A stretch of 64,000 nt of DNA, taken from contig NZ_CP012034.1 of the NCBI RefSeq assembly GCF_001050475.1, positions 992,001-1,056,000 of the forward strand. The letters run 5' to 3'. The notes under the pieces are model-generated. The model made no database searches, was not told the origin of the DNA, and saw only the letters and a program-made list of their open reading frames with translations. This DNA is from Companilactobacillus ginsenosidimutans (GTDB lineage Bacteria; Bacillota; Bacilli; Lactobacillales; Lactobacillaceae). Below are positions 36,349-58,697 of the stretch, in pieces; within the stretch, counting starts at the first letter, position 1, and each line of letters starts with the position of its first letter. The translations under genes were made by a program, and so were the position numbers.

Positions 36349-36420
36349 AGCGGAAGACGAGATTCGAACTCGCGACCCCCACCATGGCAAGGTGATGTTC
36401 TACCACTGAACTACTTCCGC
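36349..36420 (-). tRNA. tRNA-Gly (anticodon GCC)
   Basis: Cloverleaf with acceptor GCGGAAG/CTTCCGC, D-arm AGTTCAGTGGTAGAAC, anticodon loop TTGCCAT, T-arm GCGAG-TTCGAAT-CTCGT, discriminator T. CCA is not encoded. It is last in the cluster, before the terminator. Confidence 0.95.
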
Positions 36421-36424
36421 AAAA

Positions 36425-36497
36425 TGCCGACTAGAAGATTCGAACTTCCGACCCCCTGTTTACAAGACAGATGCTCTGCCAACTGAGCTAAGTCGGC
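36425..36497 (-). tRNA. tRNA-Thr (anticodon TGT)
   Basis: Acceptor GCCGACT/AGTCGGC, discriminator A, anticodon loop CTTGTAA on a CTGTC-type stem, T-arm with TTCGAAT. It lies four bases from tRNA-Gly. CCA is not encoded. Confidence 0.95.
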
Positions 36498-36532
36498 ATA
36501 ATTTTCTAATTATGCACTTTTATAAGTACTAA

Positions 36533-36615
36533 TACGGGTGAAAGGACTTGAACCTTCATGTCCAAATGACACTAGAACCTAAATCTAGCGCGTCTGCCAA
36601 TTCCGCCACACCCGC
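36533..36615 (-). tRNA. tRNA-Leu (anticodon TAG)
   Basis: An 83-base class II tRNA with a long variable arm (GTGTCATTTGGACAT). Acceptor GCGGGTG pairs with CACCCGT, the first pair being G-T. The anticodon loop is TTTAGGT on the stem CTAGA/TCTAG. Confidence 0.95.
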
Positions 36616-36645
36616 AAAACTTTAAACCATTAAGCCAAAGCTTAA

Positions 36646-36718
36646 TGGAGGATACAGGGATCGAACCTGTGACCTCCTGCTTGTAAGGCAGATGCTCTCC
36701 CAGCTGAGCTAATCCTCC
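36646..36718 (-). tRNA. tRNA-Val (anticodon TAC)
   Basis: Acceptor GGAGGAT/ATCCTCC, discriminator A, anticodon loop CTTACAA, T-arm CACAG-GTTCGAT-CCTGT. First gene of the four-tRNA cluster, 24 bases after the promoter -10 box. Confidence 0.95.
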
Positions 36719-36741
36719 AAGTAATGCGAAACAACTATATA

Positions 36742-54108: not shown

Positions 54109-56439
54109 ATGCTGGAATTAAAACATATTAAAAAATATTACTATGTTGGTGATTCAGTCACAAAGGCGTTAGATGACGTTTCAGTCTCCTTCCGTAAGCA
54201 AGAATTTGTTGCCATATTAGGACCTTCAGGTTCTGGTAAGACAACCATGTTAAACGGTATCGGTGGATTAGACATCTACGACTCTGGTGATTTAGTCATC
54301 AAAGGTAAATCAACTAAAGAATTCAAAGCAGCTGACTGGGATGCATATCGTAACAACTCAGTTGGATTTATTTTCCAAAGTTACAACATCATTGGACACT
54401 TAAGTATCCTCGATAATGTAGAAATGGGAATGACTCTCAGTGGTGTTCCAAACGAAGAAAAGAAGAAAAAAGCTATTTCAGCTTTGGAACGAGTTGGATT
54501 AGGTCCTCATATCAATAAGAAACCTAACCAATTATCCGGTGGACAAATGCAACGTGTCGCCATTGCTCGTGCCATTGCAAACGATCCTGAAATTCTTCTT
54601 TGTGATGAGCCAACCGGTGCCCTTGATACCGAAACTAGTCAAGAGATCATGAAGTTGATCAAGGAACTATCTAAGGAACGACTAGTAATCATGGTTACAC
54701 ATAACCCCGATTTGGCCGACGAGTTTGCCGATAGAATCATCAACTTCGCCGATGGTAAAATCCAAAACGATTCAAATCCCTACACAGAAAATGAAGCAGA
54801 AGATACTTTCAAGCTAAACAAAACAAAAATGACATTTTGGACAGCTTTGAAGTTGTCCTTCACCAACTTGAGAACGAAGAAAGCCAGAACCGCATTGACA
54901 GCCTTCGCATCAAGTATCGGGATCATAAGTATTGCTATCGTACTAGCATTATCATCAGGTTTCCAAAAACAAATTGATAAAACACAAGCAAATACATTGG
55001 CACAATTCCCAGTAACAATTTCTCAAACAGCTTCAACTCAAACCGGTGCAGCCAGTTCAACCAAAGAGAAAAAGGCTCCAAAATCGAAGCAAGTTACAGC
55101 CAAATTGAGCCAAGCGGAGAAATCAGTCCACACAAACAAAATTTCCAAAGATTATTTAAACTACATTAAAGACATGAAACCAAGTTTAAGTAAAAACATC
55201 GGTTACACATATGCAACCGGAATGAACTTGTTAACAAAAACAAACGGTAAAGTAAAATCCGCCCAATTTTCAAACGCAAGTTCAAATACAGCTTCAACCG
55301 GCATGAGCCAAATGGCAGCCTCAACCGGAGTCGGTGGTTCAGTTTATCCATCAACAGACAACAATGGAAAAGGATTTTTGAGTAAGCACTACAAAGTCCT
55401 CTCCGGATCAATGCCTAAGAATGAAAATGAAGTAGTCTTAATCGTAAACAGCGACAATTCAACTAATGTAAACGGATTGAAGAACATCGGTATCAAAGTA
55501 AAAGATGGACAAAAGATCGATTACAGTAAAATTGTCGGAAAAGAATTTAAAATAGTTTCAAACAACAACTACTATCAAAAGAATCCTTTAGGAACATATT
55601 CACCAAATACCAGCCTCTCATCAATGTACAACGATTCTTCAAACAAGACATTGAAGGTAGCTGGAATCTTGAAGGTTAAGTCAAAATCATCGGAGAATAT
55701 ACTAGCTACAGGTATCGCATATAGCGACAAACTGACACAAGATATAATCCAGATGAATAAGAATTCTAACATAGTAAAAGCACAAAAGAGTTCAGATACA
55801 AATGTATTAACAGGCGCAGAAATTGATGCTTCGGTATCTAAATCTAGCTTGGTGAGCTACTTAGGTGGTTCAACGACTCCATCAAGTATCATGATTTATC
55901 CAAACACGTTCGACAACAAGGACAAGGTTTTGAAGTACTTGGACAAGTACAACAAGGGCAAGTCGAAATCTAACAAGGTTATCTACACTGACTTAGCTGG
56001 CCAAGTTTCTACGCTTACTGGTGGCTTGATGACTGCTATCACCTATGTTCTAGTAGCATTCGCGGGTATTTCACTGGTAACAAGTATGATTATGATTGCT
56101 ATCATCACATACACATCTGTTCTGGAACGTACTAAAGAAATCGGTATTTTGAAGGCTTTAGGTGCGAGAAAGAAAGATATTACTCGTGTATTTGATGCTG
56201 AAACGGTCATTTTAGGTGTATCTTCAGGTCTACTTGGCGTCATCATCGCATGGTTAGCTACCTTCCCTATTAATGCGATTTTGAAGAGCATGACTGATTT
56301 GAGCAATGTTGCACAGTTGAATCCGGTGCATGCGCTAATACTGATCGTGATTAGTACAGTGCTTACTGTTCTAGGTGGGCATATTCCTGCTCGAATGGCG
56401 GCGAAGAAGGATGCAGCAACCGCTTTACGGTCCGAGTAA
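54109..56439 (+). CDS. ABC exporter, fused ATPase and FtsX-like permease (MacB type)
   Basis: A 776-residue fusion. The N-terminal ATPase (about 1-225) has Walker A GPSGSGKT (38-45), LSGGQ (142-146) and DEPTGALD. A first TM helix lies at about 262-287, followed by a large extracellular domain of about 330 residues rich in Ser, Thr, Asn and Lys. Three TM helices of the FtsX fold follow at about 640-770 ([19 protein letters not shown]). This architecture exports peptides, antibiotics or lipoproteins. The divergent TetR suggests drug or peptide induction. Copy A of the structured repeat starts five bases after its stop. Confidence 0.9.
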
Positions 56440-56443
56440 AGCA

Positions 56444-56666
56444 TAGAGAGTGGAGGAAGCCGTTAAAATGCTGAGCATAGCCTAGAGGAGCGATTGATGC
56501 GGTTTGTGCATCCATCGATGCTCGTAGCTAAGCGGAGGCATTTGGCTTCCGGAACTCGTTTCGGCTATAAACGTAGAACGGTTACCCAAAGAATCGGTAG
56601 CAGATAAATTTCTCTGGAGCAGACAGCGGAGGAGAAATTATCTACGTTAGCTCCCACGTTCTAACC
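56444..56666 (+). ncRNA. candidate structured RNA repeat, copy A
   Basis: TAGAGAGTGGA (56444-56454) is followed at once by GGAAGCC (56455-56461), which pairs with GGCTTCC (56544-56550). Inside, AAATGC/GCATTT, TAGC/GCTA and GAGC...GCTC form a long arm. The conserved 3' part (56551-56640) starts GGAACTCGTTTCGG and ends in an ATTTCTC/GAGAAAT hairpin around 56608-56638. An outer TAGAACG (56574-56580)/CGTTCTA (56657-56663) stem closes it. The 90-base 3' part matches copy B at 83 positions by eye. It has no coding potential and belongs to no RNA class I recognise. Confidence 0.7.
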
Positions 56667-56677
56667 AAAATCAAACA

Positions 56678-56706
56678 AAAAAGTCAGCCAAAAGGCTGGC
56701 TTTTTT
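56678..56706 (+). terminator. terminator after repeat copy A
   Basis: AAAAAAG-CAGCC pairs with GGCTG-CTTTTTT around AAAA. It ends transcription of the ABC exporter gene plus the repeat. Confidence 0.92.
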
Positions 56707-56800
56707 GCATCCATACTTTCAAAACCAATTCAAATATGGCAAACTAAAAATTAGATAGAGCTTGTAGTTCTAATACTTAACAAAAAAAAGGACACCTCAA

Positions 56801-57310
56801 ATGTTCATAAAACCCACAAAAAAATCAAACAAAATATTCAAGCAATTACCCAAAGTATCAGTAAATGACGACTCAGAAATCAATCCCCTATTCGCTTGGC
56901 ACGCAAACTATCTACCGGTAGACAGAAAAAATCTAGTCTTCCTAACAAACGACTTATCTTACGTAACAATAGTTCTCGCAAATGTAAATGCGGATAAACA
57001 ACACCATCTACAAAAAGAATTCCACGATGCTTTATTCCAACTATGTGATGATCTCTTTATACCAAATGAAAATTTTGAAAAGTATGTGAAACAAGGCGGA
57101 AAACTAGAATTTTTAGAAAATGGACCTGTTAATAGAAATGCAATTGGTGCCATGAACAATGCAATTAGAACTGGTGGAGGAGATATATATCAAGACGTTA
57201 CTTATCAGCAAGAACTATCAATGGTACTTTCCAAGTTGCTTATTAAGTATCCTGATAATTCAAGGGACACACCTGATAAAAAATTTGCAGAAGCTTTGGA
57301 TAAACTGTAA
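56801..57310 (+). CDS. conserved protein of unknown function, possibly DUF6933-like
   Basis: A 169-residue soluble protein without signal peptide or TM helix. It shows FAWHANYLPVDRKNLVFL (about 31-48), then FLTNDLSYVTIVLANV, and a helical C-terminal half. The 'WHANxxxxxRKNxVxxxND' pattern reminds me of the uncharacterised DUF6933 family; this is recall, not a search. AAAGGA precedes the ATG at 56801. It has its own terminator and lies alone between two inward-facing copies of the structured repeat. Function unknown. Confidence 0.7.
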   Translation: MFIKPTKKSNKIFKQLPKVSVNDDSEINPLFAWHANYLPVDRKNLVFLTNDLSYVTIVLANVNADKQHHLQKEFHDALFQLCDDLFIPNENFEKYVKQGGKLEFLENGPVNRNAIGAMNNAIRTGGGDIYQDVTYQQELSMVLSKLLIKYPDNSRDTPDKKFAEALDKL

Positions 57311-57315
57311 AACTT

Positions 57316-57352
57316 GAAAAGCGAGTTCTCACAATATGGAGAACTCGCTTTT
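57316..57352. terminator. terminator between the unknown gene and repeat copy B
   Basis: AAAAGCGAGTTCTC pairs perfectly with GAGAACTCGCTTTT around ACAATATG, with A and T runs on both sides. It can serve both the plus-strand gene and the minus-strand alr plus repeat transcript. Confidence 0.93.
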
Positions 57353-57385
57353 TTTGATTGTTTTGTGATTAAGCTCGAAGGTCGG

Positions 57386-57587
57386 TAATTTCTCCTCCGC
57401 TGTTTGCTCCTGAGAAATTTACCTACTACCGATTCTTTGGGTAACTGTTCTATTTTTATAGCCGAAACGAGTTCCATGACACAGCTTCCTATACATAACT
57501 GCAAAAAGAGGCAGGATCCGCATAGTTCGCGAATCATGCCTCTTTTCACTGTTATGACCGGAACTAACCGTGTCATTCCACTCTCTA
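57386..57587 (-). ncRNA. candidate structured RNA repeat, copy B
   Basis: In minus-strand sense TAGAGAGTGGA (57577-57587) begins with the alr stop codon itself. ATGACAC (57570-57576) pairs with GTGTCAT (57476-57482), the same place as the 7-bp stem of copy A but with different sequence. An inner arm pairs CATAAC/GTTATG and AAAAGAGGCA/TGCCTCTTTT. The conserved 3' part (57386-57475) begins GGAACTCG. Its terminal hairpin shows GGTAA/TTACC where copy A has GATAA/TTATC. These compensating changes argue for selection on RNA structure. Confidence 0.7.
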
Positions 57588-58697
57588 CTCGCGGTATACT
57601 CTTGGCAACCTTTCAGACAAGCAACAAAGCACTTCATAATTAATAGTGCCGGCATATTGAGCCACGTCAGTAGCTGTAATCTCATCATTACCACTTTTAC
57701 CAATCAAGATAACTTTTGTCCCTACGGGCATCTCATGTGGCAATTTAACCATGAATTGATCCATACAGACCCGTCCAACTATCTTGCAACGGATTCCATC
57801 AATCAATACGTCAGATCCTGACATTCGTCTCAACCAACCATCTGCATATCCGATTGGAACAGTCCCAATCCACTCTTCATCATTAGTTGTATAAGTTGCG
57901 CCGTAGCCAATACTTTCGCCAGGTCCAACTTTTTTAACATAAACCAATTCAGAATGAAGACTCAAAACGGGTTTCAATTCATATGGTAATTGAGAAATAT
58001 CTGTTTGTGATGGATTCAATCCATACAATGCAATTCCGTAACGAACCATATTGACAGCTAAATCCTGATGCCACAATGCTGTTGCTGAGTTAGCACAGTG
58101 AACATACTTGAATTTAATTGGTAAATCGCTTTTTAATTCCTTAAAACGACTCACTTGTTTCTCAAAGTATTTCTCATCAGGGCTATCAGCGGTTGAAAAA
58201 TGAGTAAATAAACCTTCTGGGATAAATGATTCTGGATGATTTTTCAAAAACATACATGCCTTAACTACTGAATCATGGTCACGAAATCCGATTCGACCCA
58301 TGCCACTATCGACACCTAAATGAACTTTGAGCTGATAAATATTCTCACGTGCTGCTTCTTCAAGCCAATCTAATGAGCCGACTGTTAAAGAAATATCTGC
58401 TTTATTCGCAATTTCAGCGTATTTAACGGGTGTTATTCCTAAAACCAAGATTGGTGCCACTACATCCGAGTCACGAATTTCAAGTGCCTCATCAAGTGTA
58501 GCAACACAAAGTCCGGTTGCTCCAAATTCAATTTCTGCTTGGGCAACCTTAACTAAACCATGTCCATATGCGTTAGCTTTAACTACGGCAAAAACGTCTG
58601 TACCTGCGGGTACGGATTTTAATTCATTATGCAAATTTGATTTTAAGTTTGCCATGTTAATTTCAACTGTTGCTGGTCTGTGAAGTGATGGAATCAT
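57585..58697 (-). CDS. alr: alanine racemase
   Basis: A PLP enzyme making D-alanine for peptidoglycan and teichoic acids. The protein has 370 residues, with the PLP lysine K40 in VVKANAYGHG. The catalytic tyrosine lies in the SIGYGATYTT region near 265, and the C-terminal beta domain has VGRVCMDQ. It lies two bases after acpS. Its TAG stop codon is the first part of structured repeat copy B. Confidence 0.96.
   Translation of the reverse strand: MIPSLHRPATVEINMANLKSNLHNELKSVPAGTDVFAVVKANAYGHGLVKVAQAEIEFGATGLCVATLDEALEIRDSDVVAPILVLGITPVKYAEIANKADISLTVGSLDWLEEAARENIYQLKVHLGVDSGMGRIGFRDHDSVVKACMFLKNHPESFIPEGLFTHFSTADSPDEKYFEKQVSRFKELKSDLPIKFKYVHCANSATALWHQDLAVNMVRYGIALYGLNPSQTDISQLPYELKPVLSLHSELVYVKKVGPGESIGYGATYTTNDEEWIGTVPIGYADGWLRRMSGSDVLIDGIRCKIVGRVCMDQFMVKLPHEMPVGTKVILIGKSGNDEITATDVAQYAGTINYEVLCCLSERLPRVYRE

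Follow-up and report, generated by a model that had tools for sequence, protein, structure and literature searches.

Copies A and B, which flank a DUF6933 gene in the 64-kb stretch of DNA analyzed here (the window), belong to a dispersed family of folded repeats that is widespread in Lactobacillales and occurs sparsely in other Bacilli. The repeat has a conserved fold, a defined strand, and, in many cases, a place directly behind a stop codon, and it differs between orthologous sites of close relatives. In our judgment, it is probably a mobile repeat of the EFAR type that is transcribed as a 3'-UTR hairpin behind the stop codon and acts there in the manner of REP elements.

Copies A and B in the window

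Each of the two copies consists of a unit and a 3' module (Table 1). The resemblance noticed in the preliminary description was confirmed, as both copies open with TAGAGAGTGGA exactly where their starts had been placed, their 3' parts are identical at 83 of 90 positions without a gap, and the middle allows no convincing alignment at the sequence level. P1 is a perfect 7-bp helix in both (GGAAGCC/GGCTTCC in A, ATGACAC/GTGTCAT in B), and the second hairpin covaries (GATAA..TTATC in A, GGTAA..TTACC in B). The extent assigned to B also holds, except that its second hairpin reaches 57384 and ends 2 nt farther out than had been supposed. The B unit has a hairpin sequence unlike that of A, the fold and the end boxes being common to both, and the second hairpin of A contains a GGAGC..GCGGA core that is also present in its unit.

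The covariance model was built from 37 copies with A and B among them, so that the match scores of these two copies arise partly by construction. A and B are its only matches in the window at E values of up to 1; a third copy, C, which the preliminary description had named without a position, was not found there by the model, and the genome as a whole has 12 model matches and eight blastn matches. When some adjacent bases were included in the folding, both copies proved far more stable than dinucleotide shuffles (z = -5.6 for A and -7.0 for B), with none of 200 shuffles as stable as the native fold in either case.

The TAA stop codon of the ABC transporter gene is separated from unit A by a gap of 5 nt, and the TAG stop codon of alr is composed of a T and the first AG of unit B. 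Copy A is followed by a terminator-like hairpin and thus lies between a stop codon and a likely terminator. No connection between the DUF6933 gene and the repeat was seen. Elsewhere in the window, a cluster of tRNA genes (Gly, Thr, Leu, and Val) is located at 36349-36719 on the minus strand.

Table 1. Positions of the two repeat copies and their neighbors in the window
Feature	Position	Strand	Remarks
ABC transporter with FtsX-like permease	54109..56439	+	Pfam PF00005, PF02687
Copy A unit, 118 nt	56445..56562	+	Covariance-model match 124 bits, E 3e-25; long imperfect hairpin between a 5' box, AGAGAGTGGA, and a 3' box, GGAACTCGTTTC
Copy A 3' module	56563..56666	+	Small hairpin 56563-56576, second hairpin 56603-56642
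Terminator-like hairpin 3' of copy A	56686..56701	+	
DUF6933 gene, between A and B	56801..57310	+	
Copy B 3' module	57384..57463	-	Small hairpin 57450-57463, second hairpin 57384-57423
Copy B unit, 123 nt	57464..57586	-	Covariance-model match 83.4 bits, E 2.6e-16
Alanine racemase, alr	57585..58697	-	Stop TAG

Anatomy and fold of the unit

The anatomy was derived from an alignment of 37 Companilactobacillus copies (39 were gathered and 2 omitted), in which the unit measures about 118 nt, with a range of approximately 115 to 125 nt. Its outermost part is an end stem, G-N-G-T/A-C-N'-C, with a covarying N-N' pair. A 3x3 loop, which reads GGA/GGA in A and B, separates this stem from P1, and a one-sided bulge on the 5' arm separates P1 from P2. 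Farther inward come the GAGC..GCGGA motif, an unpaired A that is conserved, and a short stem. The upper unit opens with an internal loop that reads CTA/GTA in many copies; beyond it lie a long variable stem and an apical loop, the latter frequently T-rich as judged by eye. The end boxes are mostly AGAGNGNG and CGTTT, and the inverted repeat at the termini amounts to just the 4-bp end stem within unpaired ends.

Base-pair swaps lie far above chance in three alignments, which bears out the selected fold proposed in the preliminary description. In the 37-copy alignment, 31 of the 36 predicted pairs show double changes in at least one copy. Two larger alignments were fitted to the structure of the model and hence are biased toward it; in the first, which comprises 121 distinct copies taken from 40 stretches, standard pairs occupy 96.9% of 4,312 cells, compared with 62.4% in shuffled and 35.5 to 44.9% in slid controls, and double changes occupy 1,509 cells versus 428 expected, while pairing in the second (67 distinct, more distant copies) amounts to 94.9%. 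Alignment A2, which was built without structure, gives the same picture. P1, corresponding to helix 2, remains paired among homologs, as had been anticipated, namely, in 98.9% of its cells across the 121 distinct copies. Covariation alone is no proof of a functional stable RNA, since covariation is equally to be expected of a mobile DNA hairpin. The earlier interpretation as a structured RNA accordingly stands with respect to the selected fold; it missed the dispersed and tandem-forming nature of the element, with up to about 100 matches per genome.

Cells with G-U outnumber those with A-C by 260 to 22, and the strand that was read is therefore the strand that folds. The share of G-U in the 121 copies is 0.4 to 2.1% in the basal helices 1 to 5 (1.8% in helix 2) and rises to 8.6% in helix 6 and 17.3% in helix 7; helix 4 reaches 5.3% in the more distant copy set. 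In alignments A4 and A5, the pairs of the basal helices swap among A-U, C-G, and G-C with about 2% G-U intermediates, a share that seems low for an RNA-only structure. Changes of the Watson-Crick type with so few G-U intermediates, as in helix 2, would fit a purely mutational origin of the compensatory changes, namely, as by-products of template switching in long imperfect palindromes, which would alter both arms together in the absence of selection. We regard such an origin as very improbable, because template switching should erase the unpaired parts, yet the 37 copies conserve both the 3-nt loop beneath P1 and the bulge that separates P1 from P2, and these two features were kept, together with the end stem, in single-sequence folds of all nine distant copies examined. 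The excess of G-U over A-C, by which one strand is favored, likewise speaks against it.

No Rfam family matches the element. At the gathering threshold, Rfam 15 gave nothing on it in the window and 17 further loci, the sole match in the latter being a TPP riboswitch elsewhere in L343, and at E values of up to 5, it gave weak matches only, far under the family cutoffs. The view that A and B are not a riboswitch, T-box, ribozyme, or 6S RNA agrees with this outcome. That a known RNA of these classes has been overlooked might be suspected from some units with a T-box-like terminator beside them, such as the one in L215 that precedes a gene recognized by eye as probable serS, but this explanation is refuted for the window and the 17 loci as far as Rfam 15 goes, and its probability is negligible. 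Rfam matches at other places of the window are the leader RNAs of ribosomal proteins L13 and L31 (591-644 and 63788-63820, respectively, both on the minus strand).

Copy number, modules, and distribution

All eight exact AGAGAGTGGA sites in the genome that contains the window are units. Seven of the eight copies first found in this genome carry an additional stretch of about 100 nt with a second hairpin and its GGAGC..GCGGA core, and the eighth (L008) is without this second module. The 118-nt unit of A recurs with 118 of 118 identical positions at two other genomic places, at which ungapped comparison with A gives 63 and 61 matches over the next 80 nt and only 17 and 8 over the 40 nt upstream. 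B, in turn, shares the module of A and has a wholly different unit. Identical units with other flanks on the one hand and a shared module behind different units on the other indicate that the unit and the 3' module have separate histories.

Within the genus Companilactobacillus, the model search detected the repeat in 35 of 36 genomes, with counts ranging from 0 to at least 101 per genome, and blastn with A found matches in 13 of the 36. In Lactobacillales, the unit is present in at least 60 of 295 sampled genomes and at least 26 of 74 genera, these counts being lower bounds from a model search with stricter filters and 12 candidates scored per genome. A class-level search identified 11 of 398 genomes at an E value of 1e-5, 8 of them outside Lactobacillales, and a phylum search with a wider model and the same strict filters identified 4 of 398 genomes, all from the class Bacilli. 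Seven of the nine distant copies examined come from outside the order, and several of the nine have a further full or partial copy close behind. A sequence-pattern scan of GTDB representatives matched at least 120 stretches; among the matches listed, exact ones outside Companilactobacillus come from Levilactobacillus, Secundilactobacillus, Lacticaseibacillus, Ligilactobacillus, Furfurilactobacillus, and Lacticigenium. The literature searched, which omits most subscription journals, contained no report of this family in lactobacilli.

Position behind stop codons

The genomic context was analyzed in 40 stretches of 20 kb, picked around known matches, with a simple ORF caller. The 122 model matches, a few of which are fragments, form 87 arrays, including 24 with two to four tandem units; one array without an upstream neighbor was dropped. 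Among the remaining 86 arrays, 59 have an upstream gene on the same strand, and 27 have no stop codon at their 5' end. In 47 of the 59 cases, the unit starts between -12 and +10 nt from the end of the upstream stop codon, with 13 arrays starting exactly at -2, so that a T and the AG of the unit form TAG, and 7 at -1. A facing stop codon is equally close to the 3' end of the unit in only 1 of 42 cases (Fisher P = 2.8e-16 versus 47/59). In gaps between codirectional genes, the stop codon is abutted by 30 of 35 sense arrays versus 0 of 18 antisense arrays. When arrays were slid within their own gaps, a mean of 6.6 and a maximum of 15 in 2,000 trials lay at +10 or less, compared with 49 observed, two of which reach 29 and 34 nt into the gene.

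Abutment is found in 34 of 40 cases in Companilactobacillus and 13 of 19 in other genera and families. The 12 of 59 same-strand cases without it remain, and some units are located directly 3' of terminator T-runs instead of stop codons, as judged by eye. Any model of the element has to account for a stop codon adjacency that is confined to the sense strand, and such adjacency seems to be explained by neither a sequence target nor simple tolerance. For alr and the ABC transporter gene, truncation by the element was rejected as the source of the adjacency, as the C termini of the alr and ABC transporter products are about equally long with and without the element.

Turnover at orthologous sites

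Only 2 of 30 alr loci in the genus have a unit at the stop codon, which overlaps the stop in G000 and lies 5 nt behind it in G012; in G032, a masked stretch 3' of alr has a unit-like end. For the ABC transporter gene, the model places units at the stop codon in 5 of 29 loci, with gaps of 5 nt in G000 and 4 nt in G021, overlap with the stop in G027 (three units) and G028, and a 32-nt fragment in G018, while a degenerate copy was recognized by eye in G002. All units associated with these two genes are in sense orientation and start at most 5 nt from the stop codon or overlap it, and some of them may have been inherited from a common ancestor. The loci without a unit mostly contain other sequence with a terminator-like hairpin, as judged by eye.

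Comparison of orthologous sites among four close species revealed different states of the unit, the ends of which stay in place. At one site, the flanks are equal in G005 and G008 and the complete units are different; at another, G005 and G008 have two units plus a partial one where G006 has a single unit. The probable serS site is occupied by a full unit in G008 and, in three relatives, by a unit whose apical part is missing; by eye, the unit lies between a T-box-like terminator and the probable serS gene (L215, L211, L213, and L214, at about 1500-1620). None of the sites compared among the four species is cleanly empty, remnants, mini-units, extra units, or an interrupted unit being present instead, and the direction, i.e., gain versus loss, is therefore a matter of inference only.

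In G026, one unit is split by a different repeat of about 467 nt (L383, 14330-14792), the ends of which read TGCCGTC.. and ..GGACGACGGCA. It seems to be an inverted-repeat element in its own right within the genus, and similar ends occur near alr in L114, L118, L120, and L122. Long repeat-like intergenic stretches (GGAACGNNGTGGACNCGA... and CGGTCTCGAACCTCG...) are located 3' of the alr or ABC transporter gene in L109, L121, L126, L131, and L132, in species without a unit at that place, and perhaps belong to the same family as the 467-nt repeat.

The fast turnover and the absence behind most alr and ABC transporter orthologs argue against strong selection at any one site. They bear on the proposal that the units are domesticated 3'-UTR regulators or 3'-UTR-derived small RNAs under gene-by-gene selection, for which sense orientation, stop codon adjacency, and covarying stems with conserved unpaired motifs could be adduced. 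With a model match at the stop codon missing from 28 of 30 alr loci and, likewise, from 24 of 29 ABC transporter loci in the genus, and with close relatives carrying different units at the same site, we consider domestication of this kind improbable.

Probable mobility and comparison with known repeats

The distribution of the units suggests that they are mobile. Target-site duplications were not apparent, as a 4-mer common to both ends was found in 6 of 109 single elements (shuffled mean, 7.3), and shared words of 5 to 8 nt likewise fell inside the shuffled range; old insertions could have lost their duplications. A transposase of the Y1 type (PF01797), which is the established partner of REPs, was matched in 18 of 36 Companilactobacillus genomes, in some only as fragments, and none was found in G012, G024, G007, G032, G034, and G035, which have from 84 to at least 101 element matches. 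The Y1 transposase was rejected as the driver, its distribution being inconsistent with the element-rich genomes. Neither A nor a four-unit array matched anything in plasmid and phage collections, and an Enterococcus copy had no match in the plasmid collection, so that no mobile carrier was found.

The units might also be purely selfish, nonautonomous mobile hairpins that have no effect on host genes and come to lie behind stop codons through their insertion machinery or through tolerance. The very uneven copy number, the tandem arrays, the orthologous sites with different or hollowed units, and the identical 118-nt units at three unrelated sites all accord with this explanation. Tolerance alone, however, leaves unexplained both the contrast between sense and antisense arrays and the exact use of the stop codon at -2 and -1, and neither a consistent Y1 transposase nor a target duplication was detected; we therefore consider pure selfishness possible, if somewhat unlikely.

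EFAR, attributed to Venditti et al. in 2007, is reportedly an intergenic palindromic repeat of Enterococcus faecalis; EFAR/Efa-1 is said to have been described for one species and to insert into stem-loop targets, part of the target being lost. Some of the units studied here adjoin terminators, as judged by eye, and the compared sites provided no clean empty example. Genome G318, which we take to be E. faecalis because a 25-nt E. faecalis ddl primer matches it exactly, contains three homologous units within the 400 kb that were read (E values of 2e-11 to 3e-11), each followed by a strong second hairpin; its sequence is not part of the model used, and a narrower model, applied earlier under strict filters, did not pick up this genome. 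Unit and second hairpin together have 171 nt in the one case measured, and a stop codon precedes two of the three units, at distances of 5 and 9 nt, with none visible ahead of the third. Efa-1 of E. faecalis is given as a pair of adjacent stem-loops of 163 nt with 65 copies (Petrillo et al. 2008, PMC2267715). The G318 element agrees with EFAR/Efa-1 in size, which is about 163 to 170 nt in that family, and in the layout of two stem-loops, a likeness that refers to the published description and not to the sequences. Because the G318 version fits Efa-1 and the description of EFAR, we classify the element as a broader kind of EFAR-type repeat rather than as something entirely new. It differs from EFAR/Efa-1 in that the unit spans Lactobacillaceae, Enterococcaceae, and other Bacilli, forms tandem arrays, has a strict fold, and abuts stop codons.

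Unlike a classical MITE, the element shows no target-site duplication. The bcr1 elements of the Bacillus cereus group are folded repeats of about 150 nt in Bacilli and resemble the element in this respect. One table row assigns 31 copies to bcr1 (PMC2267715). BOX elements of streptococci are reported to be modular and folded with variable module numbers and to supply the stop codon in 36 of 58 overlapped annotated genes; terminal inverted repeats as well as target duplications are also reported for them (PMC3049150). Both BOX and the present element are thus modular, folded, and stop supplying, but the modules differ, judging by the description in that paper, and no duplication was seen here. 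REP/BIME sequences are described as palindromic repeats in 3'-UTRs, and E. coli REPs at most 15 nt from the stop codon reportedly stall ribosomes (PMC12306157, citing earlier work); REPs are given as 20 to 40 bp in length, many with GTAG or CGTC tags (PMC3733652). The element resembles REP/BIME as a palindromic repeat in a 3'-UTR position, and it is unlike REP/RAYT in its 118-nt unit, its other end boxes, and the lack of a consistent Y1 transposase.

Possible mode of action and implications

If the element is a mobile EFAR-type repeat acting as a post-stop hairpin, the unit would form a compact hairpin in the mRNA right behind the terminating ribosome and ahead of the transcription terminator. 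By analogy with REPs near stop codons, this hairpin may slow termination or recycling, shield the 3' end from exonucleases, or do both. New units would arrive by a hairpin-recognizing route beside stop codons or existing units, presumably moved by some enzyme, as their distribution suggests. A more far-reaching reading, which we consider unlikely, is that of a mobile hairpin in Bacilli that arrives in a manner linked either to translation termination or to the sense strand of the mRNA, its units being delivered beside stop codons and exchanged in place like cassettes by a machine that reads the folded strand; this would be a type apart from MITEs and REP/RAYT.

If the EFAR-type reading is true, repeats that appeared to be confined to single species would be united in one family with a strict common fold, which is found at as many as a hundred sites per genome in bacteria of food and the gut and is not represented in Rfam. 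Through the sense-strand stop codon rule, the question of why REP-like elements sit behind stop codons would become testable in a second, distant bacterial group, with hundreds of natural variants in stem, loop, and distance at hand to address it.
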